From NCBI RefSeq assembly GCF_001429045.1, contig NZ_LMHY01000002.1, forward strand, positions 1 through 64,000: a stretch of 64,000 nucleotides of DNA. The letters are read 5' to 3'. Positions within the stretch are counted from its first letter, which is position 1, and each line of letters starts with the position of its first letter. A program made the position numbers and the translations under genes. Origin of the DNA: Pseudomonas sp. Root71. Its GTDB lineage: Bacteria; Pseudomonadota; Gammaproteobacteria; Pseudomonadales; Pseudomonadaceae. Below are positions 13,053-58,328 of the stretch, one piece after another. The notes under the pieces are model-generated. The model did not search any database. It was not told where the DNA came from and saw nothing but the letters and a program-made list of their open reading frames with translations.

Positions 13053-14579
13053 ATGAACGTATCGCTCACGCCCACCGACACCACCGTACAAAAGGTCAAA
13101 TTGTTGATCGACGGCGAGTGGGTCGAATCCAAGACTACCGAATGGCACGACATCATCAACCCGGCGACCCAGCAAGTGCTGGCCAAAGTGCCGTTTGCCA
13201 CCGCTGAAGAAGTCGACGCGGCCATCAGCGCGGCCCATCGTGCCTTCCAGACCTGGAAGCTGACCCCGATCGGCGCCCGCATGCGCATCATGCTCAAGCT
13301 CCAGGCGCTGATTCGCGAACACTCCAAGCGCATCGCCGCGGTCCTCAGCGCCGAGCAGGGCAAGACCATTGCCGATGCCGAAGGCGATATTTTCCGTGGC
13401 CTGGAAGTGGTCGAGCACGCTTGCTCCATTGGCAGTCTGCAAATGGGCGAGTTCGCTGAAAACGTCGCCGGTGGCGTCGACACCTACACCCTGCGCCAGC
13501 CAATCGGCGTGTGCGCCGGCATTACCCCGTTCAACTTCCCGGCGATGATTCCGCTGTGGATGTTCCCGATGGCCATCGCCTGCGGCAACACCTTCGTGCT
13601 CAAACCGTCCGAACAGGACCCGATGTCGACCATGCTTCTGGTGGAGCTGGCGATCGAGGCGGGCATTCCGGCCGGCGTGCTCAACGTCGTGCATGGCGGC
13701 AAGGACGTGGTGGACGGGCTCTGCACCCACAAGGACATCAAGGCGGTTTCCTTCGTCGGTTCAACTGCCGTCGGTACCCATGTGTATGACCTGGCAGGCA
13801 AACACGGCAAGCGCGTGCAGTCGATGATGGGCGCGAAGAACCACGCCGTGGTTCTGCCGGACGCCAATCGCGAACAAGCGCTGAATGCGCTGGTGGGCGC
13901 CGGTTTCGGTGCTGCGGGTCAACGCTGCATGGCCACCTCGGTGGTGGTGCTGGTGGGCGCGGCCAAGCAGTGGCTGCCGGATCTCAAGGCGCTGGCGCAG
14001 AAGCTCAAGGTCAATGCCGGCAGCGAGCCGGGCACCGATGTCGGCCCGGTGATCTCGAAAAAGGCCAAGGCGCGGATTCTCGACCTGATCGAAAGCGGCA
14101 TCAAGGAAGGCGCGAAACTGGAGCTGGACGGTCGCGAGATCACGGTTCCCGGTTACGAGAAGGGCAACTTTGTCGGCCCGACCCTGTTCTCCGGCGTGAC
14201 CACCGACATGCAGATCTACACCCAGGAAATCTTCGGCCCGGTGCTGGTGGTGCTGGAGGTCAATACGCTCGACGAGGCCATCGCCCTGGTCAACGCCAAC
14301 CCGTTCGGCAACGGCACGGGTCTGTTCACCCAGAGCGGCGCGGCGGCACGTAAATTCCAGAACGAAATCGACGTCGGCCAGGTCGGCATCAACATCCCGA
14401 TTCCGGTGCCGGTCCCGTTCTTCAGCTTCACCGGTTCGCGCGGTTCCAAGCTCGGCGACCTCGGCCCGTACGGCAAGCAAGTGGTGCAGTTCTACACTCA
14501 GACCAAGACCGTCACCAGTCGCTGGTTCGATGACGACAGCGTCAACGACGGTGTGAACACCACCATCAACCTGCGATAA
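13053..14579 (+). CDS. mmsA: Methylmalonate-semialdehyde dehydrogenase (CoA-acylating)
   Basis: This 508-residue aldehyde dehydrogenase oxidises methylmalonate semialdehyde (valine) or malonate semialdehyde to propionyl- or acetyl-CoA with NAD+. The catalytic cysteine is C292 in [10 protein letters not shown], and the family segment [16 protein letters not shown] is present. The start at 13053 follows a GGAG site (CCGGAGACCC). Length is typical (about 500). mmsB follows after 10 bases, so the two form one operon. Confidence 0.96.
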
Positions 14580-14589
14580 GGAGCCGGAC

Positions 14590-15477
14590 ATGAAAATCGC
14601 TTTTATCGGTCTGGGCAACATGGGCGCGCCAATGGCGCGCAACCTGATCAAGGCCGGCCATGCACTGCGCCTGGTGGACCTGAACAAAGCCGTGCTGGCG
14701 GAACTGGAACAACTGGGCGGCAGTATCAGCCCAACGGCCCGCGAAGCTTCAGAAGGCGCCGAACTGGTCATCACCATGCTGCCTGCCGCTGTGCATGTGC
14801 GCAGCGTGTGGCTGGGCGAAGACGGCGTGCTCGCCGGTATCGGCAAAGGTGTTCCGGCCGTGGATTGCAGCACCATCGATCCGCAGACCGCGCGGGACGT
14901 TGCCGCCGCCGCTGCCAAACAGGGCGTGGCCATGGCCGATGCGCCGGTTTCTGGCGGCACCGGTGGTGCAGCCGCCGGGACGCTGACCTTCATGGTCGGC
15001 GCCACGCCTGAACTGTTCGCCACCCTGCAACCGGTACTGGCGCAAATGGGCCGCAACATCGTCCATTGTGGTGAGGTCGGCACCGGGCAAATCGCTAAAA
15101 TCTGCAACAACCTGTTGTTGGGGATTTCCATGGTCGGCGTCAGCGAAGCCATGGCGCTTGGCGATGCATTGGGCATCGACACCAAGGTGCTGGCGGGCAT
15201 CATCAACAGTTCCACCGGGCGTTGCTGGAGTTCGGAGATGTACAACCCGTGGCCGGGCATCGTCGAAACGGCGCCGGCGTCGCGCGGCTATACCGGTGGT
15301 TTCGGTGCCGAACTGATGCTCAAGGATCTGGGGCTGGCCACTGAGGCTGCGCGTCAGGCGCACCAGCCGGTGGTTCTCGGCGCGGTGGCCCAGCAGTTGT
15401 ATCAGGCGATGAGTTTGCGTGGGGAGGGTGGACAGGACTTCTCGGCGATCATCAACGGCTATCGCAAGCCGCAATAA
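14590..15477 (+). CDS. mmsB: 3-hydroxyisobutyrate dehydrogenase
   Basis: This 295-residue NAD(P)-dependent beta-hydroxyacid dehydrogenase oxidises 3-hydroxyisobutyrate to methylmalonate semialdehyde, the step before MmsA. It has the N-terminal Rossmann motif FIGLGNMGAPMA (5-16), the substrate-binding APVSGGTGGA, and the catalytic lysine K170 in GQIAKICNN. A GGAG site lies just before the ATG. It is the second gene of the mmsAB operon and is followed by a strong terminator. Confidence 0.96.
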   Translation: MKIAFIGLGNMGAPMARNLIKAGHALRLVDLNKAVLAELEQLGGSISPTAREASEGAELVITMLPAAVHVRSVWLGEDGVLAGIGKGVPAVDCSTIDPQTARDVAAAAAKQGVAMADAPVSGGTGGAAAGTLTFMVGATPELFATLQPVLAQMGRNIVHCGEVGTGQIAKICNNLLLGISMVGVSEAMALGDALGIDTKVLAGIINSSTGRCWSSEMYNPWPGIVETAPASRGYTGGFGAELMLKDLGLATEAARQAHQPVVLGAVAQQLYQAMSLRGEGGQDFSAIINGYRKPQ

Positions 15478-42927: not shown

Positions 42928-43179
42928 ATGGAATACGTCCTGCTGATATCCCGACTCGGTAGCCAAATACGTGAAACGCGTATCAGGCGCGGTCTGACAC
43001 AAGCTCGACTTGCTGAGCTCGCCGGTTTGACGCGGCAGAAAGTCATTGCTGTCGAGCAGGGTGTCGATACTGTTGCCATGAACGCTTACGCAAGAGTCTT
43101 GAGCGCTTTGGACTGCCAGCTCACCGTTATACCGGCGGCCATGCCGACCCTTGAAGAGCTTGGGGAGTTGTTCGAATGA
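42928..43179 (+). CDS. hipB: HipB-like antitoxin / XRE-type regulator
   Basis: This 83-residue protein has an HTH_3 domain (IRRGLTQARLAELAGLTRQKVIAVEQG, about 19-45). It overlaps the hipA start by four bases (ATGA), the standard antitoxin-toxin arrangement. HipB binds its operator and inhibits HipA. The base composition is more AT-rich than the neighbours, which together with the debris upstream suggests acquisition by transfer. Confidence 0.88.
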   Translation: MEYVLLISRLGSQIRETRIRRGLTQARLAELAGLTRQKVIAVEQGVDTVAMNAYARVLSALDCQLTVIPAAMPTLEELGELFE

Positions 43180-44375
43180 AAATGACCTCCCTCAAAGTCA
43201 GTACCCCAGAGGGCCATAGCGGCCGAATCCTCACCAGCGGCGATAATTATATTTTTCGCTATCTAGAAGACGCTTTACCCAACACCTCCATCAGTCTGTC
43301 GATGCCCGTGCGGGCTGACGAGTTTCGTCGGCGGGATCTGCATCCCGTATTCCAGATGAACCTTCCTGAAGGCTATATGTTGGAGCAGTTGCGCAATCGC
43401 CTGGCGAAAACCGTAAATGTCGATCCAATGTTGTTGCTTGCTCTTTCTGGCAGCAGTTCGCCAATTGGCAGGATTCAGGTGCATTCCGAAACCGTTGATG
43501 CCCTGCTTGGCGAACAGCAGTTCCCTGGAGAAAAACTCGAAGAAATTCTCACCTGGGATGGAGCGGAAGATATCTTCGCCGACCTTCTTGACCGCTATAT
43601 TTTACGGGCAGGTATATCGGGTGTTCAGCCGAAGGTTTTGGTGCCTGAGCAGCAAGATTTCGAATTGCGACGAGCCACCTCGAAAACCTCTGACTTGATA
43701 ATCAAGAGTGGCCGGGATGAGTTTCCAGGACTGGCCATCAATGAGTTCCTTTGCATGTCCATTGCCAAGGAGGCGGGCATTCCAGTCCCGCAGTTTTACC
43801 TGTCCGACAATGCAAGGCTGTTTGTCATGCGTCGCTTTGATCGGGACGACCAGCTTAACCCGATTGGATTCGAGGACATGGCCGCACTGATGGGGCTCTC
43901 GGCCGATCAGAAATACAGCAAAAGCTATGCTGCCATAGCCAAAGCGATTCGGCTGTTTTGCCCGGCAAACAATCAACGAACCTCGCTTGATCAACTTTTC
44001 GATTACATAGCGCTGAGCTGCATCGTTGGGAACGGCGATGCTCATTTAAAGAACTTCGGCTTGCTCTATTCGGAGCCGACCCAACGTGACGCGCGCCTCG
44101 CGCCGGCATACGACATCGTTAATACGACGGCCTATATCCCTGAAGATGTTTTGGCGCTAGACCTTATGGGTAACAAGTCGTTGTTTGCTTCCCGTCAGGG
44201 GTTGTTGGAGTTTGCACAGACGTGTGAGGTGGAACATCCTGAGTTGCGGATTCAGCGATTGCTTGCGGCAGTTGAGTTGGTGCTGAAGCGCTACCCTGAG
44301 TTTCGGGAGCAGGCGCCTCATGTGGTGAAGGCAATACAGCACGCGGCAGCCCCTTTCGCCCTGACGTTTGGGTAG
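43176..44375 (+). CDS. hipA: HipA-like serine/threonine kinase toxin
   Basis: This 399-residue HipA-family kinase has an N-terminal HipA_N region and a kinase core. GISGVQPKVLV is the ATP-binding loop, NGDAHLKN (286-293) carries the presumed catalytic D288, and PAYDIVNT carries the metal ligand D313. SSSPIGRI near residue 95 resembles the conserved N-terminal block. In E. coli HipA phosphorylates GltX and causes persistence. All core residues seem intact, so it is probably active. Confidence 0.9.
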   Translation: MKMTSLKVSTPEGHSGRILTSGDNYIFRYLEDALPNTSISLSMPVRADEFRRRDLHPVFQMNLPEGYMLEQLRNRLAKTVNVDPMLLLALSGSSSPIGRIQVHSETVDALLGEQQFPGEKLEEILTWDGAEDIFADLLDRYILRAGISGVQPKVLVPEQQDFELRRATSKTSDLIIKSGRDEFPGLAINEFLCMSIAKEAGIPVPQFYLSDNARLFVMRRFDRDDQLNPIGFEDMAALMGLSADQKYSKSYAAIAKAIRLFCPANNQRTSLDQLFDYIALSCIVGNGDAHLKNFGLLYSEPTQRDARLAPAYDIVNTTAYIPEDVLALDLMGNKSLFASRQGLLEFAQTCEVEHPELRIQRLLAAVELVLKRYPEFREQAPHVVKAIQHAAAPFALTFG

Positions 44376-45907: not shown

Positions 45908-46088
45908 TCGTTAGTGTGGGGCCTGTTTGCGCTTGCCGGCAGGCCGGTCAAGCGCTTCGGGATATCGAGAGATGGTGGATGTCCGCTTCGATCCAGGGTG
46001 GACATCATCGAAATGCGCTGTAGTCATGGTGGTCGTTTGCGCAAGAACGATGATGCAACCGTAAAGCCACCATGTTCTGGCTTGAGAC

Positions 46089-47108
46089 TCATCCGAACGT
46101 TACCAACACCTTGGCCGATTCATCTGCACGCGCGGCGGTAGCGAAGGCTTGCTCGAAGTCTTCGAAGGCGTAGCGATGACTGATCAGCGCGGTGGTGTCG
46201 ATCCGGCCGGCGGCGAGGATCTCCAGCACCTCGCCAAACTCGGTGGGATAGGCCATGGCGGTGGTCACTTCCATCTCCTTGCCCAGCGCCATCGCCAGAT
46301 CCATGGCGACCGGTGCGTGATGCACCGCCACCACCGTCAGATGCGCCCCGAAACGTGCGCGCGCAATGATTTGGGGAATGACCGGCGCTGCGCCCGACAC
46401 CTCGATGAATTCGTCGGTATCCACCACTGGCATCCCGTAGAGCGTGCTTGCGCCATGGCGCTGGCCGATTTCAGCCCAGAGATCGCAGTTGTCGGGATTG
46501 AAGGTGGCGTTTGCACCGAGCGCGCGCGCACGTTCTAGACGTGAGTCCACGCGATCGACGGCAATGATGTCCGCGACGCCGCGCAGACGGAGCATTGCCA
46601 CGACGCCGAGCCCGATGGGGCCCGCGCCGAAAACAACCACCTTGCTACCAGCGCCGGCACGCGACCGGTTGACGCCGTGCAGCGCGACGGCGAGCGGCTC
46701 GACCAGCGCAGCGGTTTCGAAGTCCAGGGTGTCGGGAATGGGGTAGACCGACGACTCGGCCATGACATTGCGCACGAGAATGTGCGAGGCGAAGGCCCCA
46801 GGGCCGCCGGAGCCGATCATGTTCGCAGGCGTCGTCGGGTTGACCACCACGCGCTGGCCTTTATGCAACGCCGTCACTCGCGCGCCCACCTCCTCGATCA
46901 CGCCCGAGAACTCATGCCCGAGCGACAGAGGACCATCGCCCCCCATCGGCAGGCCACCGGCGCGCGCATAACCGAGGTCAGAGCCGCAGATACCGCAGAC
47001 CACGACCTTGACCACAATATCGTCCGGCCCGGCACTGGGGCGTTGTACCTGTTCGACACGAATATCGTCAGGACCGTGAACCGTTGCATGAAGCATCAAT
47101 TTCGTCAT
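46089..47108 (-). CDS. Zinc-type alcohol dehydrogenase (MDR family)
   Basis: This 339-residue medium-chain dehydrogenase has the catalytic-zinc ligands C41 (CGICGSD), H65-E66 (GHEFSG) and the later ALVEPLAVALHG. The Rossmann motif is VVFGAGPIGLG. The four cysteines of the structural zinc lobe are absent; that region reads NPTTPANMIGSGGPGAFAS. The AAGGA site supports the start at 47108. It is the last gene of the five-gene minus-strand arm of the sulfation cassette and could oxidise a hydroxyl on the pathway intermediate. Confidence 0.9.
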   Translation of the reverse strand: MTKLMLHATVHGPDDIRVEQVQRPSAGPDDIVVKVVVCGICGSDLGYARAGGLPMGGDGPLSLGHEFSGVIEEVGARVTALHKGQRVVVNPTTPANMIGSGGPGAFASHILVRNVMAESSVYPIPDTLDFETAALVEPLAVALHGVNRSRAGAGSKVVVFGAGPIGLGVVAMLRLRGVADIIAVDRVDSRLERARALGANATFNPDNCDLWAEIGQRHGASTLYGMPVVDTDEFIEVSGAAPVIPQIIARARFGAHLTVVAVHHAPVAMDLAMALGKEMEVTTAMAYPTEFGEVLEILAAGRIDTTALISHRYAFEDFEQAFATAARADESAKVLVTFG

Positions 47109-47124
47109 AGTGGATTCCTTCATT

Positions 47125-48234
47125 TCAGATTGTGATCCAGGCGCGCTTGCGCGCCGACAGGCGAATGGCGTCGAGCACTTGTTGGCCACGCGCAGCGTCG
47201 TTGAATGTGGCGGCGCGCTCGGGGATCGCGGGTGCGCGATTCTCGATCCGCGTGCGCATCTCGGCGAACAGGCGCGCATAAGGCGCAACATCGAAGCCCA
47301 TGGTGTGCCAGCGGTCCTGCTCGGTCTGGATCAGCTCTGCGACGGGAAAAGCTGTCGGCATTGCGTTGACCAGATCCGCGGGCATCTCGATGCGCCGCAC
47401 GCCATCGGCGTCGCTCACCCAGACTTCTTCGGGGTCACCAAACGTCGCGCCGCTCTGAATCCACGCGCCGCCTGCGCTGCCCACCACTTTGGTGGCCATC
47501 ACCAGCGGCCCCGGCGCGGCCAGCGCGGCGATGATTGACCCGGCAACACCGCTGTCCGTTTCGAACTGCACGGTGTAGCAATCGTCGGCGGTCATGGTGG
47601 GGCGCCCGGGCGCCAGCGTCTGCAACATGCCGCAGACACAAGTGATGGGGCCGAACATGTATTCGACCTGATCGATCATGTGCGAGCCGAATGCGCCAAG
47701 GAAACCGCCGCCCTGGTCGGCGTCCTCCCACCAGTCGCTGAGTTTGCTTGTCGAGTCCTGCAGGCCCGGTTGATGGTAGATGCGCAGGAAATGGCGCGGC
47801 GTGCCGATCAGTCCCGACTGAACAACGCGCCGCAGCAGCGCCTGCGCGCTGTCGAAGCGGAATTCGGCGCCGAGCAGGTGATGAACACCGGCCTTTGTCG
47901 CGGCTTCGCGCATCTGCGCTGCTTCGGCGGCGTCGCGGGCAAAGGGTTTTTCGCACACGACATGCCGCCCGGCGGCGATCGCGGCCATCACCGGTGCATA
48001 GTGTGCATGCGGGGGCGTTGCCACCGTAACGAGCTGGATCGCCGGATCAGCCAGCACCTGGGCCAGGCTATCGGTCGCCAGTGGGATACCCAGCGGCGCG
48101 GCACGGGCGATGGTGCGGGCACGGTCTCGGCCGACGATGGCGCGCACCTCGAACCCGGCCTCGCGCAGCGCGCGGACATGGGTGAACAGGCCGAAGCCAG
48201 TGCCGACCACTGCGGCACCTATGGGATGGGTCAT
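47125..48234 (-). CDS. Gfo/Idh/MocA-family oxidoreductase
   Basis: This 369-residue NAD(P)-dependent oxidoreductase has an N-terminal Rossmann motif VVGTGFGLFTH (residues 9-19), the family EKP motif (VVCEKPFARD, about 95) and the C-terminal GSHMIDQVEYMFG. Substrates are usually sugars or cyclitols. It starts 74 bases after the DUF1214-type gene and ends 16 bases before the alcohol dehydrogenase. A GGAGG site precedes the start. Its substrate is unknown. Confidence 0.9.
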   Translation of the reverse strand: MTHPIGAAVVGTGFGLFTHVRALREAGFEVRAIVGRDRARTIARAAPLGIPLATDSLAQVLADPAIQLVTVATPPHAHYAPVMAAIAAGRHVVCEKPFARDAAEAAQMREAATKAGVHHLLGAEFRFDSAQALLRRVVQSGLIGTPRHFLRIYHQPGLQDSTSKLSDWWEDADQGGGFLGAFGSHMIDQVEYMFGPITCVCGMLQTLAPGRPTMTADDCYTVQFETDSGVAGSIIAALAAPGPLVMATKVVGSAGGAWIQSGATFGDPEEVWVSDADGVRRIEMPADLVNAMPTAFPVAELIQTEQDRWHTMGFDVAPYARLFAEMRTRIENRAPAIPERAATFNDAARGQQVLDAIRLSARKRAWITI

Positions 48235-48307
48235 CAGAGGTCGCCTCCATGCAGGACGGGATTGAGCGCCACGATGCGGCACCGCGTCATTTCGCTGGAC
48301 AGCACGC

Positions 48308-49531
48308 TCATTGCGCCACCTCGCCACTGATGATCGGCACGATGTCTTGCAGCGCCTCTTCACCACGTTCTTGCAGCACGGTCAGCGCAATACGGCGCAG
48401 CGTTACCTGCGGCGGCTCGCCCTGTGTGCCAATCAGGCGCAAACTCATGCCGCCATGGACATGTCCGAAGGACTGGACCCAATTGCCGGCGATGCCGGGC
48501 TGGCCTTGCGCAACGATGACGCGCACCGAGCCGTCCTGGCGATAGCTGGCCTTGTATTTCTGCACGCAACCGCCGCCGTCCTCGTAGTTGTCGAGGTTCT
48601 CTTGCCAGATCGAACAGAGCTGGAATATCCAGTAATCACAAGCTGAGGGCAGGAAATCGATAACCAGCGCCTCGTCGCCAGCACACTCCCAGGTACCGAA
48701 GCCGTGGTGTCGGTCCGGCACGCCGCCATTGGACAGGTACACCGCGCGGTCGAAGCGGATGCGGTTTGGCCGCTGGCTGAGATTGTCCTGCCACCAGCTG
48801 CGCACCAGTTCGCAATAGCCAAGTACCATCTGGCCCGCCTTGGCGAGCGCATCACTTATTTCGGCGGCGGTGACGGGACGAGGTTGCGGGCTATCGATCC
48901 GTTCGATGGTGAAGTGAGGCGGCGCGGTATTCGCGCGATCATGATAGAGCGTGCGCACCAGGAGACCGACGCAGTCCGGTGAGATCGACAGCCAGTCGCG
49001 CCCGTCAGCGGGTTTGTTCTGGCTGACAACGATCTCGAAGTTGCCCTGCGTATCGAACTTCACCTGGCGTGAGGAGATGAAGCCGGTGGTCTGCAGCGCA
49101 GCGGGATCGAATTCTCCAAGACTGGCCACGCCGCGCGAGGCCCAGTCCTGAGCGCCCGGATGGCGCGGTTGTGGTGCGCGCCATGAGGCGATGACGAAGT
49201 ACGGCAGCCCGCCGCGATGACCACGAATGAGATAGTCATGACTACCGTCGACGAACTCGGCAAGCAGATGATCCTGATCGGGAGACTGGAAGTTGATGGA
49301 CTGGCGCCAGGGCGCATCGCGCAGGCGCGGCCGTTCTGGCTCGCAGTTTTCCAGGTAGCGTTCGAAACCGTTGCGCATGAGCCGGGTCATGAATCGATAC
49401 CATTCGGCGCGGTCGAGGGTATCGGCCTCGGCGCCGAAAGCATCGACCCTGTGGCCGGCCTGGCGAACGGTTTCGCAGAAGTCGTCCCATGCACGGCCGG
49501 ACAATAGGCGTTGCGTAGCTTGATCGGTCAT
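48308..49531 (-). CDS. DUF1214-like protein coupled to the sulfotransferase
   Basis: This 407-residue soluble protein has a C-terminal half with VYLSNGGVPDRHHGFGTWEC and SACDYWIFQLCSIWQENLD, which resembles DUF1214. The N-terminal half is not recognised. The start codon overlaps the sulfotransferase stop (ATGA at 49528-49531) and has its own AAGGAG site, so the two are translated together in a fixed ratio. I infer that it assists the sulfotransferase or handles the same substrate; no activity is known to me. Confidence 0.75.
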   Translation of the reverse strand: MTDQATQRLLSGRAWDDFCETVRQAGHRVDAFGAEADTLDRAEWYRFMTRLMRNGFERYLENCEPERPRLRDAPWRQSINFQSPDQDHLLAEFVDGSHDYLIRGHRGGLPYFVIASWRAPQPRHPGAQDWASRGVASLGEFDPAALQTTGFISSRQVKFDTQGNFEIVVSQNKPADGRDWLSISPDCVGLLVRTLYHDRANTAPPHFTIERIDSPQPRPVTAAEISDALAKAGQMVLGYCELVRSWWQDNLSQRPNRIRFDRAVYLSNGGVPDRHHGFGTWECAGDEALVIDFLPSACDYWIFQLCSIWQENLDNYEDGGGCVQKYKASYRQDGSVRVIVAQGQPGIAGNWVQSFGHVHGGMSLRLIGTQGEPPQVTLRRIALTVLQERGEEALQDIVPIISGEVAQ

Positions 49532-50790
49532 GACCGCTCTCCTTCGATGCGCTCTGGCTTGACCGAGAAGCGCTCATAGTAAAAGCCGAATCGCTCGCGC
49601 AAAGCGGCTATATCCACACCGAAATCGCCTTTCAGGTCATAGATGACGCGACCATGCTTGCCCCGTGGATTGGCGTTCAGATAGGCCTGGATCCGTGCCT
49701 TGGCATCGGCGGTCAGTGGCAGGCCGGCCATGGCATAGATGCGTTCGATCACCGTCTGTTGGTCGGCCATGTAGTCGTCGAAGAGCACATCGAGCGATTG
49801 GCCGACGGGAACACTGTCCCGGTCCCGAACACAGGCACGCAGAAGATGTTCCACTCGATCTGTCCAATAGCGCGCCAACGCCTTTACGTCGACGGTATGG
49901 CGGCGGATGCGGTCGCCATAGGCGATCATGGTGATGGCGGACTGGAGCACGGCAACGGGGTCGCGATGGGTAATGACGAGCGTGGCGTCGGGATAGGTCG
50001 TCATCAGCGGCCGCAGGTTCTCCATGTGCGGCGGCGATTTCATCACCCATCGGTTCGGGCCCTGGAGCCAAGTGAGCGCCTGCAGGACTCGGCGACCATA
50101 ACGGTAGTGCGGCGTTTGATCGTGGCTGTAGTAGTAGTCGCGCCAGCGACACGGGCGAGACTGCCATTCCGGCAGATAGGAGGAGAAGTCCAGGCCTTGC
50201 AGTTCGATGTCTTCATGCACGTGGGTGGGGGACATTTCGTGCATCGCCGGCATGAACGGCAATATGGCTTCGAATTCGCCCCAGGCCTGACGGGTACGAA
50301 CGATGCGCGGATCTTCCCCGCCTGGCGTTTGGTCTTGTGGCGCAGGAATCGGCTCCATCGCTTCCCATAGCGGCATCGAGCGCAGTCGCGGATCGGCTGC
50401 CAGGATGTTGACCAAGTGGGTCGTGCCTGAGCGGGGAAGGCCGGCGACGATGATCGGCCGATCAATCGTGACGTCGTTGATTTCCGGGTTTCGCTTCGCC
50501 AGATCTTCGAAGCGCAGGCGCGAAGATGCGTAGCGCACGGCATCGCCGAACATCCCCGCGCGCCCCAGGGGGCCGAGCTCCGTATCCTCGTCAAAACTCT
50601 TCAGCCAGATTCGCAGCCGTTCGCGGAAGTCCTCCGAACCGAAGTCGGAAAGCCCCGTGCGCTGGCATGCGGCTGCAAGGACGGCCTCCTCGCGCATTTC
50701 CACGGGGGGGACGCCCGCGATCGCTCGACGCTGCCGCTCGGTCAGCTCGGGGGCGCCCAGGTCTGTGATACGGATGATGTCAGGTTTCAT
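49528..50790 (-). CDS. PAPS-dependent sulfotransferase
   Basis: This 420-residue sulfotransferase (Sulfotransfer_3 type) has the 5'-phosphosulfate-binding loop GLPRSGTTH at residues 117-125 and the 3'-phosphate segment ITHRDPVAVLQS near 275. It transfers sulfuryl from PAPS to a hydroxyl or amine acceptor, giving pAp. The acceptor is unknown. ATG 50790 follows GGAG; another ATG four codons upstream lacks a site. PAPS is supplied by cysD and cysNC encoded divergently 1.2 kb away. Confidence 0.92.
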   Translation of the reverse strand: MKPDIIRITDLGAPELTERQRRAIAGVPPVEMREEAVLAAACQRTGLSDFGSEDFRERLRIWLKSFDEDTELGPLGRAGMFGDAVRYASSRLRFEDLAKRNPEINDVTIDRPIIVAGLPRSGTTHLVNILAADPRLRSMPLWEAMEPIPAPQDQTPGGEDPRIVRTRQAWGEFEAILPFMPAMHEMSPTHVHEDIELQGLDFSSYLPEWQSRPCRWRDYYYSHDQTPHYRYGRRVLQALTWLQGPNRWVMKSPPHMENLRPLMTTYPDATLVITHRDPVAVLQSAITMIAYGDRIRRHTVDVKALARYWTDRVEHLLRACVRDRDSVPVGQSLDVLFDDYMADQQTVIERIYAMAGLPLTADAKARIQAYLNANPRGKHGRVIYDLKGDFGVDIAALRERFGFYYERFSVKPERIEGERS

Positions 50791-50856
50791 GCGCTGCTCC
50801 ATAAATGTGAGGAGAGGTGTTGGCGACAGGCAGTACAGGAAGGGCCGACGCCGGAC

Positions 50857-51627
50857 TCAGCCGGCGACCGTGAAACCGCCGTCGACAGGCAGTGTCTGTC
50901 CAGTGATCCAGCCGGCGGCGGCGCTCGTCAGGAAAAGGACTGGACCGGCGATGTCCAGCGGCACCCCAAGGCGTGCTGCCGGCGTACGCGCAAGCGTGGG
51001 CGCGGACCACTGCGGATTGGCAACAGTCGTCGCCGTCATGCGGCTTGCGGTAAGCCCCGCCGCGACCGCGTTGACGCGAATGCGTCCGCCCCAATGGACC
51101 GCCAGTACCCGGGTCAGCCCGACGACGCCAGTCTTTGCCGCGCCATAGCCAGGCACCACATCGATCCCGAAGAACGAGCTCATTGATGCAATGCCGATGA
51201 TCGAAGGGCCGCCTGGCAGCGTGCTCTTCAGGAGTTTGTCGGCGCAGCCATGCGCCATGCGATAGCCACCGACCAGGTGCATGCGCACCGCGCGTTCGAA
51301 AACGTCCGGTTCGTACTCGTCCAGGCCACTGCTTGGCAGCGCAAAGCCGGCGTTGTTGATGAGGATGTCCAGGCGCGGCAGCGCTGCTGCGACGGCAGAA
51401 ATGTTGTCTGCGTTCTCGATGTCGAGCTGCAAGTAGCGGTAGCCGTCGAGGTCAATGTCGTAATCGGCGGCGCAGGGCCGGGTGCCGGTGATCGTCACTT
51501 GCGCACCTGCTGCTCGGTACGCTGCGGCGATGCCGGCCCCGATGCCACTGGTGCCACCGGTCACCAGGACATGGCAATTGTCGTAGTCAAACTGAAGGTT
51601 CGGCCAGTCGGCCTGTTGAGTGTTCAT
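50857..51627 (-). CDS. Short-chain dehydrogenase/reductase
   Basis: This 256-residue classical SDR has the cofactor motif TGGTSGIG (23-30), NNAG, the catalytic serine in IASMSSFFG and the YGAAKTG Tyr/Lys pair, and the late PVDGGFTVAG. It reduces or oxidises an alcohol/ketone with NAD(P)(H). It is the first gene of the minus-strand arm, 66 bases before the sulfotransferase. The start MNTQQADW has a GGAGG site; the longer frame is unrelated. Confidence 0.92.
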   Translation of the reverse strand: MNTQQADWPNLQFDYDNCHVLVTGGTSGIGAGIAAAYRAAGAQVTITGTRPCAADYDIDLDGYRYLQLDIENADNISAVAAALPRLDILINNAGFALPSSGLDEYEPDVFERAVRMHLVGGYRMAHGCADKLLKSTLPGGPSIIGIASMSSFFGIDVVPGYGAAKTGVVGLTRVLAVHWGGRIRVNAVAAGLTASRMTATTVANPQWSAPTLARTPAARLGVPLDIAGPVLFLTSAAAGWITGQTLPVDGGFTVAG

Positions 51628-51940
51628 GGGGCGTTGCCTCCAATAGGTACACCTGATTGCTGCGGCGCAATGGGCCAGTCGATCAGGAGCAGCAGCTATC
51701 GCCCCGGCCGACTGGCGGTTCAAGATAAGGCGATAGTATTAAAAGCATTCGAGCTGCGAATAGTCTTAACGGACGATGATCCATGCAATTGCGAGATCTA
51801 CCTTTAAAGCCAGTTTAAGTAACAAGGCTTAAAAAAGAGGTGGGCGATAAACGTCCACACGCAATCGCACCTCGAGTGACAGGGCCGGTCATCGGATTCT
51901 CGGTGGCATCACGACCCAGCGCAGAGGAAGGAGGAAATAC
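51628..51940. promoter_or_regulatory. Divergent promoter region of the sulfation cassette
   Basis: This 313-base gap separates the two divergent arms (SDR and cysD). It is more AT-rich than the genes and holds the imperfect inverted repeat TTTAAAGCC (51803-51811) / GGCTTAAAA (51826-51834), a possible operator. GGAGG lies 8-12 bases before cysD. I see no gene inside. Confidence 0.55.
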
Positions 51941-52837
51941 ATGCTGACGCACTTGCAGCGTCTTGAGGCCGAGAGCATTCACATCATGCGAGAAGTGGTC
52001 GCTGAGTGTGAGAACCCGGTAATGCTCTACTCCGTCGGTAAGGACAGTGCAGTGATGCTGCACCTGGCCCTGAAGGCGTTCCACCCAGGAAAACTGCCGT
52101 TCCCATTGCTGCACGTCGACACGACCTGGAAGTTCCGCGAGATGATTCAGTTCCGCGACGCCATGGCGAAAAAGCACGACTTCGACTTGCTCGTCCATAT
52201 CAATCCCGAGGGGCTGGAAAAGGGCATCAGCCCTTTTTCCCATGGTTCGGCCATACACACCGACATCTGGAAAACCGAGGGATTGAAGCAAGCGCTGGAC
52301 AAGCACGGCTTCGATGCGGCCTTCGGCGGCGCACGGCGGGACGAAGAAAAATCGCGAGCCAAGGAACGGATATTCTCGATCCGCTCCGAGCAGCACCGCT
52401 GGGATCCCAAGCTGCAACGCCCCGAGCTGTGGCGGATGTATAACGCCCGCAAGCACAAGGGCGAAAGCGTCCGGGTGTTTCCCCTGTCCAACTGGACCGA
52501 ACTCGACATCTGGCAATACATCTATCTGAACGACATTCCGATCGTGCCGCTCTACCTGGCGAAAGAGCGACCGGTGGTGGAGCGCGACGGCACGCTCATC
52601 ATGGTCGATGACGAGCGCATGCCACTGAATGACGGCGAGGTTCCCGAGATCAGGAAAGTGCGTTTCCGCACGTTGGGTTGCTACCCGCTGACCGGCGCAA
52701 TCGAGAGCGAGGCCGACTCCTTGACGGCCATCATTCAGGAAATGCTTCTGGCCAGGACGTCCGAGCGCCAGGGTCGCCTGATTGATCACGACTCCGCGGG
52801 CTCGATGGAGAAAAAGAAACAGGAGGGGTATTTCTAA
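51941..52837 (+). CDS. cysD: Sulfate adenylyltransferase small subunit CysD
   Basis: This 298-residue ATP sulfurylase subunit makes APS from sulfate and ATP, driven by the CysN GTPase. It has the PP-loop [10 protein letters not shown] (about 31-40), the conserved [15 protein letters not shown] and the [14 protein letters not shown] segment. GGAGG precedes the start. The stop overlaps the cysNC start (TAATG). Pseudomonads carry core sulfate-assimilation cysD/cysNC elsewhere, so this is probably a second, cassette-bound copy. Confidence 0.96.
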
Positions 52838-54738
52838 TGGCACACGTATCCGATTTGATTGCCGAAGACATCGAGCAATATTTGAAATCCCACGAGAACA
52901 AGAGCCTGCTGCGTTTCATCACCTGCGGCAGCGTCGACGATGGAAAAAGCACGCTCATCGGGCGCCTGCTCTACGAATCGAAGATGCTCTTCGAAGACCA
53001 GTTGAGCCAGCTGGAAGCGGATTCAAAGAAGGTAGGAACGCAAGGTGGCGACCTGGATTTCGCACTACTGGTCGACGGACTTTCCGCCGAGCGTGAACAA
53101 GGCATCACCATCGATGTTGCCTATCGCTTCTTCTCGACCGACAAGCGCAAGTTCATCGTGGCCGATACACCGGGCCACGAGCAATATACGCGCAACATGG
53201 TCACCGGAGCCTCGACAGCGGATGTCGCCATCATTCTGATCGACGGGCGCAAAGGGGTGCTGACCCAGACGCGCCGACACAGCTATCTGGTGTCGCTGAT
53301 TGGCATTCGCCATGTCGTGCTGGCGATCAACAAACTGGACATGGTGGGCTACTCGAAAGAGATCTACGACAAGATAGACGCGGACTATCGCGCTTTCGCC
53401 AGCCAGATTGGCTTGCAGAATATCGTCACCATCCCGATGTCAGCCCTGAAGGGCGACAATATCACCGAGCCGAGCGCGAACACCCCCTGGTACCAGGGGC
53501 CGACACTGATGGGGTACCTTGAGACGGTGCAGGTAGAGGATGCTGCGGATCAGTCCGGGCCGTTTCGCATGCCGGTGCAGTGGGTCAACCGACCGAACCT
53601 CGACTTCCGCGGCTATGCCGGGATCGTTGTCGGCGGCAGCGTCAAGCGCGGCAATCGCCTCCGTGTCCTGCCGTCGGGGAAGGAAAGCCGGGTCGCACGT
53701 ATCGTGACGCGCGAGGGTGACCTTGAGGAAGCCGTCTCTGGCCAGTCGATCACGATTACGCTCGAGGACGAGATCGATATCAGCCGGGGCGACATTCTCG
53801 CGACGATCGATGCACCGGCCAGGGTGGCAGACCAGTTCGAGTCGACGATCATCTGGATGAGCGATGAACCGATGCTGCCGGGCCGCCCCTATCTGTTGAA
53901 GATCGGCACCAAGACCGTGACGGCCACCAGCGCGACACCGAAATACAAGGTCAACGTCAATACGCTCGAGCATCTCGCCGCCAAGACACTGGAACTGAAT
54001 GAAATCGGCGTTTGTAACCTGAGCTTTGACCAGCCAATCGCATTTGACCCCTACAAGGAAAATCGCGATACCGGCGGTTTCATCATGATTGACCGCCTGA
54101 CCAACAATACGGTCGGCGCCGGACTCCTGCACTTTGCCTTGCGTCGCTCGCAGAACATCCACTGGCAGGCGATTGACGTAAACAAGCAGGCGCACGCCAC
54201 ACTCAAGGGGCAGAAGCCTTGCGTACTCTGGTTTACAGGTCTGTCGGGTGCCGGCAAGTCCACGATCGCGAACCTCGTCGAGAAGAAACTGCATGCGTTG
54301 GGCAAACATACCTATCTGCTTGACGGTGACAACGTGCGCCACGGTCTCAATAAAGATCTCGGATTCTCCGAAGCCGACCGGGTCGAGAACATCAGACGCG
54401 TAGGTGAAGTCGCCAAGCTGATGGTCGATGCGGGGCAGATCGTCCTGGTGTCCTTCATCTCTCCATTCCGATCTGAACGCAGAATGTCGCGCGAGCTGGT
54501 GGAGCAGGACGAGTTCTTCGAGGTGTTCGTCGACACGCCGATCAGCGTGGCAGAACAGAGGGATCCAAAAGGTCTCTACAAGAAAGCTCGCCGTGGCGAA
54601 CTGACGAATTTCACCGGCATCGATTCCCCCTACGAGCCGCCGGAAAACCCGGAAATTCGCATCGACACCACCGCTTGCTCTCCCGAGGAAGCAGCCGAAC
54701 TGATCGTCAGCCATCTTGTCGCTCGCGAGGCCCTATGA
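52837..54738 (+). CDS. cysNC: CysNC: sulfate adenylyltransferase large subunit fused to APS kinase
   Basis: This 633-residue bifunctional protein has an N-terminal CysN GTPase (G1 loop GSVDDGKST 31-39, [12 protein letters not shown]) and a C-terminal APS kinase (Walker [10 protein letters not shown] 468-476, [10 protein letters not shown] with the family Ser, [15 protein letters not shown]). With CysD it turns sulfate into PAPS. It overlaps cysD and the DHH gene by one and four bases. Within this cassette the product PAPS is most simply the donor for the sulfotransferase on the opposite arm. Confidence 0.97.
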
Positions 54739-55703
54739 ATCGCTACGTTGCATTCAATGGGGATGCCGATGGACTCTGTGCGTTGCAACAACTGCGGCTT
54801 GCCGCGCCTGACGAGTTCGCCGGCGCAAGGCTGCTGACCGGTGTCAAACGCGACATTCAGTTACTGCGGCGTATCGAAGCGTGCGAGGGGGATGCCATCA
54901 CCGTACTCGACATCTCCCTCGATCAGAATCGTACCGATCTGCTTCGCCTGCTTGGGGCAGGCGCAACGGTGCGCTACTTCGATCATCATCACGCAGGGGA
55001 GATGCCTCGGCATGGGCGCTTCGAGCCTTATATCGACGAGGCTGCCGACGTCTGCACCAGCATCCTGGTCGACCGCTATCTTGGCGGTCGCCATCGTGCA
55101 TGGGCGATTGCCGCGGCATACGGCGACAGCCTGCCTGAGGTGGGCTGCACCATGGCCAAGGCGCAAGGCATAGATGCTGGAGCGGCCAGGGTCCTGGAGC
55201 GGCTCGGCCTCTATCTCAACTACAACGCTTATGGCGAGACCGTTGCCGATCTGCATTTCGATCCGGCCGAGCTGTCGACCCTGATGCAGCCCTTTGTCGA
55301 TCCGCTGGAGTTCGTCGCAGGCTCGGACGCCTACGCGCGGCTGGCGGTTGGCTATGAGGAGGACATGGATCTGGCACGCCGGCTTACACCGACACGCCAG
55401 GTGCCCGGCGCGATGCTGCTGATGTTGCCAGACGCGCCATGGGCACGGCGGGTCATCGGAACCCTGGCCAATGAGCTGATGCAGGCACAGCCAGATCGCG
55501 CGCTCGGTATCCTGTCGCCCAAAAGGCAAGGTGGATTCACGGTAAGCGTGCGCACTCCCGGACATAGTCCGGTGGCTGCGGCTGACTTCTGCCGCACCTT
55601 TGACAGCGGCGGTGGCAGGAAACTGGCGGGAGGTATCAATCATCTGCCCGAATCGGAAGTCGACCGCTTTACGTGCGAGTTCGAAAGGAGCCTCTCCAGG
55701 TAG
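54735..55703 (+). CDS. DHH-family phosphoesterase, possible pAp phosphatase
   Basis: This 322-residue DHH/DHHA1-type protein has [11 protein letters not shown] (D10, D12), D59 in [13 protein letters not shown] (D83-H86) and a C-terminal [11 protein letters not shown]. NrnA-type DHH enzymes hydrolyse nano-RNA and also 3'-phosphoadenosine 5'-phosphate. The start overlaps the cysNC stop (ATGA at 54735-54738). Since the sulfotransferase yields pAp, which blocks PAPS enzymes, removal of pAp is the most likely role here; this is inferred from context. Confidence 0.85.
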
Positions 55704-55735
55704 CAGTCATTACCCCAGTAATGTTTACAGCTGCC

Positions 55736-56476
55736 TCATGAGGGCAAGCTGTAAACGTGGGCTGGAGCCTGTTCGGGTACGTCAAGGCGGGAAAGAAGGG
55801 AGACAGTTTCGGGCGACATGGGGCTCGCCAGCAGTGCCACCAGGCAGTCTTCGATGTTCTTGATGAACAACTCGGTGTCCATCACCAAGGTCTTCTTATC
55901 ACTCGCATCAAGCATGCGAGAGTGATCGGCAAGCCCATGGAGGAGCAATACTGCCGCCAAGTGCAGGCGCTGCTGGGCCACAGACTCCGGTAGGTCCTGG
56001 AGGACCCCGAGCAGCGCCCGCCTCAACCGATCCACCTGACCCAGATTGAGCGTGGAAGCGCGCAGGTTCTGTACGGAGAGCGTATGCACCGCCACCAGTT
56101 GGGCATCCAGTCGGATAAAGTCCTTCCCTCCGTTGGGATCGAACATCTTGTCGGCCACCGGATACATCAGCGCGCGGACCACGTCTCGCACCGAGGGGCT
56201 ACCTCGCTTCTCCAGTTCATCGAGCAATGCGTTGCGCCGAGCGGCAATACCAGGTTCATGCTTGTCGAGGATGGCCTGCAGCAAGCCGTCCTTGCTGCCG
56301 AAGTGGTAATTCGTGGCGTTCTTGTTTCGCTGCCCGGCGGCTTTGTTGATGTCGCTTAACGACACCCCTTCGATACCGCGCTCGGCGAACAGCCGTTCGG
56401 CAATTGACACGAGCTTTGCTCGAGTGACGACGCTTTTCAGTGTCAAACGTTCGATTTTCCTGACTTGCTGGGTCAT
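55736..56476 (-). CDS. TetR-family regulator at the cassette edge
   Basis: This 246-residue TetR protein has an HTH (EGVSLSDINKAAGQRNKNATNYHFGSKDGLLQAIL, about 32-66) and an all-helical ligand domain. The start at 56476 is the ATG closest to the HTH; the ribosome site is weak and an ATG at 56536 is an alternative. It converges on the DHH gene with a 32-base gap and diverges from the LuxR gene. It probably regulates the cassette, but position is the only evidence. Confidence 0.85.
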   Translation of the reverse strand: MTQQVRKIERLTLKSVVTRAKLVSIAERLFAERGIEGVSLSDINKAAGQRNKNATNYHFGSKDGLLQAILDKHEPGIAARRNALLDELEKRGSPSVRDVVRALMYPVADKMFDPNGGKDFIRLDAQLVAVHTLSVQNLRASTLNLGQVDRLRRALLGVLQDLPESVAQQRLHLAAVLLLHGLADHSRMLDASDKKTLVMDTELFIKNIEDCLVALLASPMSPETVSLLSRLDVPEQAPAHVYSLPS

Positions 56477-56559
56477 CACACCAATCTTTTGAGTCGACCA
56501 ATGGTACGAAACGAATCGCAGTTTAACATCGGCCATAGGGTGGATCGTACAAGTAAACT

Positions 56560-56575
56560 CACCGACCGGCCGGTG
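56560..56575. promoter_or_regulatory. GC-rich palindrome between tetR and luxR
   Basis: ACCGGCCGGT (56565-56574) is a perfect 10-bp palindrome within the near-palindrome CACCGACCGGCCGGTG. It lies 84 bases before the TetR start, a place where an autoregulatory site would be expected. Confidence 0.4.
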
Positions 56576-56715
56576 CGCTTCGCAGGACGCAAAGTTACAC
56601 GATCTGGCAGGTAGGCCCACCTCCTTTCAGACTATGGATCCGGGTGTTGCGCTCAATCGACGACGGCACTTATTCTCGACCATCTCCAACACTAATAAAT
56701 ATAAAAGGATTGTCC

Positions 56716-57843
56716 ATGCAGAGCCTCAGCCTCGAGACGTTCAGCGAGTTCGTCGGCAATCTCTATCAAGGACCGCTGGAGAACATCCCCTGGACGACCT
56801 TCCTCAACCGGCTCAATGTGCATCTGCAAAGCAAGTTCGTCACCTTCATCCTGCGCCCGCCGAGTCAACACGACACTGGCCTGATGATCCACACCACGGG
56901 TTCCTCAGCCGAAATCACTGCCTCCTATAACCAACACTTTTTCGCCCTCGACCCCTTTGTCGACCTGCCCAACCGCCAGGTCGTTACCCTGGCCGAATTC
57001 GTCTCCCACGACGATTGGCAAAACTCCGAGTTCTGCAAGAATTTCCTCGAACCGCAGGACGTGTTCCATGTCCTCGGCGCCGACATCAACACTGCCGACG
57101 GCGCTCAGTGCCGCATCCGCATCAGCCGCGGTCGAGACGACAGTGCCTTCAATAATGATGAAAAGGCCCTGTTGGCGCAGTTCATTCCGCACCTGGAACG
57201 CTCGATCGAGATCCATATGCGCTTGAACCGCATCGAAACCGAGCGCAACCTCTATGCCGGCGCGGTAGATCAGATGGCGGTTGGCACGATCATTCTCGAC
57301 GAAGCCGGCAAAGTGCTGCGGACCAACCAGGTGGCCGACCGCCTGATCCAGGAAAAAGACGGTATCAAGCTGGTCAACGATGGCCTGCAGATCGGCACCG
57401 CGCGGGACACCCAAGAGTTCCGGCGTCTGGTGAAACAGTCGCTGCTCTCACAAAAAAGCGGTAACCCCTCGGTGGTCGAGGCCTTGCGCGTGCAACGGCC
57501 TTCGGGCCGCGCTGACCTGGGCATCATCGTGCGCTCGGTACCGTTGTCAGACTGGAGCGAAGGCAAGCAGTGCCCGGCAGTGGTGATCTTTATCAGCGAC
57601 CCGGAACAGCAATCCAGTGCACCGCAAGAAATTGTCCGCGCCCTGTTCGACTTCACCCCAGCCGAAACCCAACTGGCCATGCTGCTGGCCAACGGCCTGA
57701 CCCTGGACGAGGCCTCCGAAGAACTGGGCATCAGCCGCAACACCTCACGGGCACACCTGCGTTCGACTTTCTCCAAGACCGGGGTGACCCGCCAGACCAT
57801 GTTGGTGCGGTTGATCCTGCGCAGTGTAGCGACCCTCGGTTAG
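56716..57843 (+). CDS. LuxR-type HTH regulator
   Basis: This 375-residue protein has a C-terminal LuxR HTH (FTPAETQLAMLLANGLTLDEA...SRNTSRAHLRSTFSKTGV, about 315-365). The N-terminal two thirds lack a receiver or acyl-homoserine-lactone domain; a middle PAS-like part is possible (VGTIILDEAGKVLRTNQVADRL). AAGGA precedes ATG 56716. Base composition and codon use look native. The target is unknown. Confidence 0.85.
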   Translation: MQSLSLETFSEFVGNLYQGPLENIPWTTFLNRLNVHLQSKFVTFILRPPSQHDTGLMIHTTGSSAEITASYNQHFFALDPFVDLPNRQVVTLAEFVSHDDWQNSEFCKNFLEPQDVFHVLGADINTADGAQCRIRISRGRDDSAFNNDEKALLAQFIPHLERSIEIHMRLNRIETERNLYAGAVDQMAVGTIILDEAGKVLRTNQVADRLIQEKDGIKLVNDGLQIGTARDTQEFRRLVKQSLLSQKSGNPSVVEALRVQRPSGRADLGIIVRSVPLSDWSEGKQCPAVVIFISDPEQQSSAPQEIVRALFDFTPAETQLAMLLANGLTLDEASEELGISRNTSRAHLRSTFSKTGVTRQTMLVRLILRSVATLG

Positions 57844-57894
57844 GGTAAGCAGTAGCCGTGTTGGATGCAGTGTATTTCACTGAACTTCAGGCAC

Positions 57895-57931: not shown

Positions 57932-58328
57932 TGGTGGAGCCGGGGGGATTTGAACCCCCGTCCGCCAGTACTCCGCTGTCGGTACTACATGCGTAGCCGT
58001 GTCTATTAAGTTAACCCTCAGCGACCCGACGGGCAGGGTGCTTTGGGCGAGTTGTGTAAGTTTTAGCCGCTTCGTCCACAACGTACTGCACGGCGATTCT
58101 GTTCTATATGACAATCACTTTGGGTTTACAGACATCCCCTGGTGATTGCTGGACCCGAAGGTACCAGAAGCTCAGGGCTAAGGCTGCTTACGCAGCGAGA
58201 GCGAATTCCTGGCCGTAGTTATCGTCATTGGCAACTATAAGTAGTTGCAACAGTGGATTTACGAGTTCTGTTACCAACTCGGCATGCACCTAAAGTTTCG
58301 CAACCGGCGTCGAATCCTAAACGGCCCC
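57932..58328 (-). ncRNA. ssrA: Transfer-messenger RNA (tmRNA)
   Basis: The minus strand starts GGGGCCG and ends CGGCTCCACCA, so the tRNA-like acceptor ends pair and CCA is encoded. The tag frame runs from the resume codon at 58232 to the stop at 58188 and reads ANDDNYGQEFALAA. The T-arm carries GGGGGTTCAAATCCCCC. Length is 397 bases, typical for proteobacteria. tmRNA rescues stalled ribosomes with SmpB. Confidence 0.97.

Follow-up and report, generated by a model that had tools for sequence, protein, structure and literature searches.

A 64,000-nucleotide stretch of the Pseudomonas sp. Root71 genome, referred to below as the window, carries what is probably (roughly 0.7, in our estimate) a dedicated cassette for sulfation of a small molecule with 3'-phosphoadenosine 5'-phosphosulfate (PAPS) as donor. 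The cassette lies in a variable segment beside ssrA, and the window is positions 1-64000 of contig C2 in a 6.25-Mb genome of 30 contigs. CysD and CysNC would convert sulfate and ATP to PAPS separately from the core-type cysDNC genes, and a Sulfotransfer_3 enzyme, the sulfotransferase (ST), would pass the sulfuryl group to a hydroxyl on a molecule that is either imported or formed during catabolism. A DHH protein may cleave the by-product 3'-phosphoadenosine 5'-phosphate (pAp), and a DUF1214-like protein would act together with the ST or directly after it. A short-chain dehydrogenase/reductase (SDR), a zinc-dependent dehydrogenase (ADH) and a Gfo/Idh/MocA oxidoreductase (GFO) would oxidise hydroxyls of the same molecule, for which our best guess is a steroid- or terpenoid-like alcohol or its sugar or polyol part. 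TetR and LuxR proteins might regulate the cassette genes.

Gene content of the cassette

Five genes lie on the minus strand in the reading order SDR, ST, DUF1214-like, GFO and ADH. The SDR (50857-51723, likely start 51627) scores 146.5 bits with Pfam adh_short_C2, and the ST, which carries the motif GLPRSGTTH (49528-50802), scores 126.9 bits with Sulfotransfer_3 (cut-off 27). The DUF1214-like gene (48308-49531) overlaps the ST gene by 4 bp, and its product barely passes the Pfam model, over a short stretch (28.3 bits, cut-off 25). The GFO (47125-48366, likely start 48234; GFO_IDH_MocA, 80.9 bits) and the ADH (46089-47291, likely start 47108; ADH_N 61.3 and ADH_zinc_N 51.1 bits) complete this strand. 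On the plus strand are cysD, for sulfate adenylyltransferase subunit 2 (51941-52837; NCBIfam 564.8 bits, cut-off 413), cysNC, a fusion of subunit 1 and adenosine 5'-phosphosulfate (APS) kinase (52837-54738; NCBIfam CysN/CysC 1083.4 bits, cut-off 715), and, joined to cysNC by an ATGA overlap, a DHH-type phosphoesterase gene (54735-55703). By profile match, both subunits and the fused APS kinase are full length. Every gene that an earlier sequence-only reading of the window had named is present, on the strand given there. Starts given for ADH, GFO, SDR, DHH and TetR that are later than those of the longest open reading frames (ORFs) are ATGs chosen by eye; gene calls outside annotated records come from an ORF picker, and some of their starts are wrong.

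Extra PAPS-synthesis genes in the same genome

The genome contains three full-length CysNC copies, in the window, at C3:79,434 (72% identity to that of the window) and at C2:192,941 (54%). The last is of the core type: a copy at 51-54% identity was present in 27/27 genomes looked up, and no ST was found in the 14 kb around it (locus L040). Because this core-type copy is present elsewhere in the genome, the cysDNC genes of the cassette are an addition. The search for a second, core cysD/cysNC that the sequence-only reading had proposed thus found one, and the idea that the cassette holds the only set of the genome was ruled out. Extra PAPS-synthesis genes beside an ST, with the core copy elsewhere, are what a dedicated PAPS supply looks like.

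The C3 copy belongs to a second cassette (L039), with DHH-SDR-ST-DUF1214 on the minus strand and SRPBCC-CysD-CysNC-LuxR on the plus strand (SRPBCC by Pfam). Besides CysNC, identity to the window proteins is 84% for CysD, 51% for DHH, 36% for LuxR, 34% for DUF1214 and 32% for ST. The C3 SDR, used as query, did not match the window SDR at E<=1e-6, and the two are not close. On contig C5 the same genome also has a Sulfotransfer_1 gene (G000:C5:41739-42347) and, 12 kb from it, an APS-kinase-like gene (G000:C5:54660-55175) with 41% identity to the CysNC C-terminus; these are perhaps a third sulfation locus.

Recurrence in Pseudomonas and other bacteria

We surveyed 398 genomes of the same genus (Root71 and 397 others), a sample of the genus, and scored up to four ST and up to three CysNC candidates per genome, so the counts are lower bounds. 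Gene presence was judged in stretches of 8-25 kb, some of them cut by contig ends (e.g., L036, L049 and L050). An ST match at E<=1e-20 was found in at least 19/398 genomes, Root71 included. The STs of the 18 other genomes show 31-34% identity to the window ST and 62-95% to the C3 ST, and DUF1214, CysD, CysNC and SRPBCC were near the ST in all 18 (15-20 kb around each). A C3-type SDR was near it in 16 (not in L082 and L083). The pAp-phosphatase candidate beside the ST was DHH in eight (L076-L083) and CysQ in ten (L084-L093), never both; the one CysQ checked (L093) scored 291.4 bits with NCBIfam (cut-off 228.8). A LuxR homologue was found in 7/8 DHH-type and 3/10 CysQ-type stretches. Because all 18 neighbourhoods hold the set, ST-DUF1214-CysD-CysNC-pAp phosphatase is a recurrent module of Pseudomonas, with two subtypes according to the pAp-phosphatase candidate. 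That candidates of two unrelated pAp-phosphatase types turn up in this one context is the best sign for PAPS-dependent transfer chemistry, and the module gives comparative support to the view that this ST family uses PAPS as its donor.

The link also holds from the side of CysNC. Cassette-type CysNC (at least 70% identity) is present in at least 26/398 genomes, including all 19 with the ST (Fisher p 5e-27 for co-occurrence, uncorrected for relatedness). The remaining seven (L113-L119) have no match to the window ST and could have broken the link; this was rejected, as tblastn found another ST and a sulfatase-like gene alongside in 7/7. The pair in L116 (region L116:8160-14295) scores 95.6 bits with Sulfotransfer_3 and 48.3 bits with Sulfatase in Pfam. 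Seven further genomes carry an extra CysNC at 56-58% identity, and in the one such locus examined, that of the close relative G021, a Sulfotransfer_3 gene is 191 bp away. Relatives of the module occur in other Proteobacteria. A plasmid of Paraburkholderia sprentiae carries ADH-DUF1214-ST-VOC-CysQ-CysD-CysN, and one of Sphingomonas paeninsulae carries ST-SDR facing CysQ-CysN-CysD, with no DUF1214 detected there.

The sulfotransferase, the DHH protein and the DUF1214-like protein

The window ST is related to PDB entries 2z6v (E 4.4e-41) and 2zq5. These mycobacterial proteins belong to the same family over nearly the full length, and the P-loop stretch GLPRSGTTH, the 5'-phosphosulfate motif, is aligned with 2z6v. 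The two entries are known as STF9 and STF1, with a PAP complex, although their records read 'putative uncharacterized protein'. From the gene context, we infer that the window ST takes the sulfate from PAPS.

The DHH label is the weakest of the gene assignments. The protein stays below every Pfam cut-off (DHHA1 14.5 bits, cut-off 25.9, E 0.049), and its top PDB profile match, NrnA 5j21, is non-significant (E 0.31). The motifs NGDADG, the aspartate of VLD, DHH and GGGR are invariant in ten aligned relatives, the window protein included, and it is presumed to be a pAp phosphatase on this basis. A single-sequence structure model had a predicted local distance difference test score (pLDDT) of 42.3 and was not used.

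For the DUF1214-like protein, a model predicted from five sequences (pLDDT 71.0) has two beta-sandwich-like parts. Its only close structure is 6ans, an uncharacterised protein of Burkholderia cenocepacia (Z 32.2, root-mean-square deviation (rmsd) 3.0, 353 aligned; sequence E 3e-49). VPA0735 (Z 11.4, rmsd 7.1) and VPA0106 (Z 10.2, rmsd 4.6) follow, and matches below Z 8 (RetS, galectin and adhesin domains) were taken as common beta-sandwich likeness. The gene neighbourhoods tie this family to sulfotransfer, and its function becomes testable.

These neighbourhoods also bear on what becomes of the sulfate. Within 7 kb of 50 STs, a set in which some are near-copies and two loci contribute two STs apiece, DUF1214 was present at 36, an alkyl-sulfatase-like metallohydrolase at nine, neither at five and both at none. 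Since the two never stand together beside an ST, sulfate may be a transient activating group. In this special form of the proposed sulfation, which we regard as unlikely, the sulfate ester would be a leaving group that DUF1214 removes by elimination or inverting hydrolysis. A hydroxyl would then be dehydrated or epimerised within a degradation pathway, an outcome that we also consider improbable. DUF1214 would be a sulfate-ester lyase or inverting hydrolase of a novel type, in the role that the metallohydrolase has at related loci; this assignment is likewise doubtful. Of the nine metallohydrolases, the six examined with Pfam all exceed the cut-offs for Lactamase_B and Alkyl_sulf_dimr; the top PDB matches of two are sec-alkylsulfatase 4av7 (E 6e-21), an inverting enzyme, and SdsA1 2cfu (E 2.2e-14). 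At the seven Pseudomonas loci mentioned above, the sulfatase-like gene adjoins another ST and cysDNC. This pattern suggests that DUF1214 may handle a sulfate ester. However, the DUF1214 fold matches well only uncharacterised proteins, and the metallohydrolase loci show no cysDNC. Furthermore, NCBIfam gave no name above cut-off for 4/4 metallohydrolases tested, and the two labels track the ST tree (three changes for the metallohydrolase), which means few independent exchanges. If the sulfate is indeed transient, bacterial catabolism would be using it as a throw-away activating group, with PAPS produced locally, and a first biochemical role could be assigned to DUF1214.

Two arms of different ancestry

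Returning to the dedicated sulfation cassette, several observations weigh against it. A window-type ST was found in 0/397 other same-genus genomes, with up to four candidates scored in each. The sphingomonad plasmid pNL2 of N. aromaticivorans carries ADH-ST-DUF1214-isomerase-GFO-SDR, with five homologues of window genes at 40-68% identity; unlike the window, it has no cysDNC or pAp-phosphatase gene annotated in 25 kb, and it has an extra sugar-phosphate-isomerase-like gene. CysNC was found in only one (L110) of ten loci of the sphingomonad order (L032, L036, L052-L056, L109, L110 and L112). In P. alkylphenolica xwS2 (L031), TetR-SDR-ST-DUF1214 is present at 85-86% DNA identity (ST 90%, TetR 84% identical), and cysD-cysNC-DHH is absent between TetR and SDR: window positions 51,870 and 55,743 map 163 bp apart. 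The ST arm can thus be found without cys genes, which means that core PAPS can suffice. In addition, no acceptor or transporter gene indicates one compound, and the DHH assignment rests on motifs, with no profile above cut-off.

The occurrence of the ST arm without cys genes also means that the union of the two arms is modular. The sequence-only reading had described one block that makes PAPS, sulfates a molecule and clears pAp. The core copy elsewhere, the 18/18 sets and the plasmids support this part, but the minus-strand arm also occurs without the cys genes in sphingomonads and in P. alkylphenolica, which that reading had named as a sign of a weak link and which counts in part against it. 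In the ST tree, the nearest neighbour of the window ST is L031 (100/100), followed by L032 and L043 (99/97), and the 20 C3-type STs lie elsewhere. In the CysNC tree, with one core copy as outgroup, the window protein is sister to nine DHH-type Pseudomonas cassettes (99/97). The window GFO has 76% identity to a sphingomonad homologue that adjoins an ST; a tblastn search (E<=1e-8) of the 21 kb at the P. alkylphenolica ST detected neither a GFO nor an ADH homologue. The 46-52 kb part has a GC content of 62-64%, the 51-57 kb part one of about 59%. The window cassette is therefore a chimera of a TetR-SDR-ST-DUF1214(-GFO-ADH) arm and a cysD-cysNC-DHH arm that differ in ancestry, so that PAPS supply and ST are combined from two sources at the variable site that adjoins ssrA. 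Probably the ST arm was acquired and the PAPS arm was inserted into it, between its TetR and SDR genes; the alternative would be loss of the PAPS arm in P. alkylphenolica. P. alkylphenolica xwS2 has another cassette, of the CysQ type and with cysDNC. A phage-integrase-family recombinase gene (L031:14205-15347, 61.4 bits) is 1.7 kb past its ST arm.

The existence of the ST arm without cys genes, and the differing ancestry and GC of the arms, would also fit two mere neighbours at an insertion hotspot, in which case cysD-cysNC-DHH would be a reserve set for sulfate assimilation and the ST arm would work independently of it. We consider this quite unlikely, because cassette-type CysNC is near an ST in 26/26 same-genus genomes that carry it and because ATP sulfurylase itself needs no pAp phosphatase.

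Possible acceptors

Among the genes found near relatives are those for a KstD-like FAD dehydrogenase (583 bits, under the cut-off of 789), a FadD3-family coenzyme A (CoA) ligase (732 bits, cut-off 657), an acyl-CoA dehydrogenase, and DUF1302 and DUF1329 proteins. Annotated Rieske proteins, acyl-CoA dehydrogenases and TonB receptors are also present. The likeliest setting is the breakdown of hydrophobic compounds, which may be steroid- or terpenoid-like. For the window ADH and GFO, the highest-scoring NCBIfam models are those for scyllo-inosose and levoglucosan dehydrogenases, with scores far under the cut-offs; a polyol or sugar moiety would agree with this. On a plasmid of Sphingobium sp. TomMM15 (L052), ADH-ST-SDR-DUF1214 lies among annotated beta-xylosidase, beta-galactosidase and beta-glucosidase genes. 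Since the accessible part of the tomatine paper contains no word starting with 'sulfo' (PMC10653915), these glycosidase genes are a hint only.

That the cassette sulfates a surface polysaccharide, a lipid or a peptide signal, as NodPQ/NodH or RaxPQ/RaxST do, is very unlikely: the second cassette adjoins apparent ATP-binding cassette (ABC) transporter and polysaccharide genes (by eye, without profiles) and the logic of PAPS supply is alike in the available part of the Rax source (PMC4216712), but ST neighbourhoods elsewhere look catabolic and no glycosyltransferase or exporter was found among the ten window coding sequences scanned with Pfam.

Relation to known systems

The principle of a PAPS supply dedicated to one ST is known from the Nod, Rax and BT_0416 systems. 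What is new here is the DUF1214 partner, the alternative pAp phosphatases and the modular arms. In rhizobia, NodPQ is an extra PAPS-supply pair for the dedicated ST NodH, whose acceptor is a lipo-oligosaccharide; it resembles the window in PAPS supply and differs in this acceptor. We know of no DUF1214 or pAp-phosphatase partner in the Nod system or in the Rax system of Xanthomonas. In the latter, according to the accessible part of the source, RaxP and RaxQ, an additional pair resembling CysD/CysNC, provide PAPS for the dedicated RaxST, as proposed for the window, although the acceptor of RaxST is a peptide (PMC4216712). The Bacteroides cholesterol sulfotransferase BT_0416 adjoins putative PAPS-biosynthesis genes, BT_0411-BT_0415 (PMC9417993). 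Here too a small-molecule ST is beside such genes, a likeness drawn from gene context. Unlike the window, this cluster is from another phylum and its acceptor is known, and the part of the paper available makes no mention of DUF1214, SDR, GFO or ADH. A published description of such a Pseudomonas module was not found in the open-licence literature, in agreement with the sequence-only reading, which knew of no described Pseudomonas system with this gene set.

Regulators, divergent region and the variable site

The TetR-family gene (55736-56620, likely start 56476, minus strand; TetR_N 38.4 bits) and the LuxR-type gene (56644-57843, plus strand; GerE 24.2 bits, cut-off 23.5) lie beyond the DHH gene, and homologues of the LuxR-type protein occur near ST cassettes. 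Both arms share the divergent intergenic region at 51628-51940. It contains one perfect 15-bp palindrome (51747-51761), which was chosen after sight and is not intact in P. alkylphenolica, and which stays a candidate operator.

The cassette fills a variable segment of about 12 kb (45924-57873) that adjoins the 3' end of ssrA, the transfer-messenger RNA gene found by ARAGORN at 57932-58328 on the minus strand. Flank alignment to G021 gives 94-95% identity up to 45,923 and again from 57,874, with different content between. No integrase profile was found among the ten coding sequences scanned, in line with the claim of the sequence-only reading that the block carries no transposase or integrase, but at the same site the content of G021 (L104:7027-17600) opens with a gene for a tyrosine integrase (102.9 bits in Pfam, cut-off 27.1). 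No clear repeat was found at the segment ends, where the best local match is 11 bases. As an integrative element at ssrA, the segment shows neither an integrase of its own nor att repeats, and what it has in common with G021 is the site. The G021 content also includes an ORF that resembles a DNA methyltransferase by eye (13108-14976). Upstream of the segment, positions 42928-44375 of the window hold a HipB/HipA-like pair, recognised by eye, within a stretch at 42.8-44.7 kb that does not align to G021.

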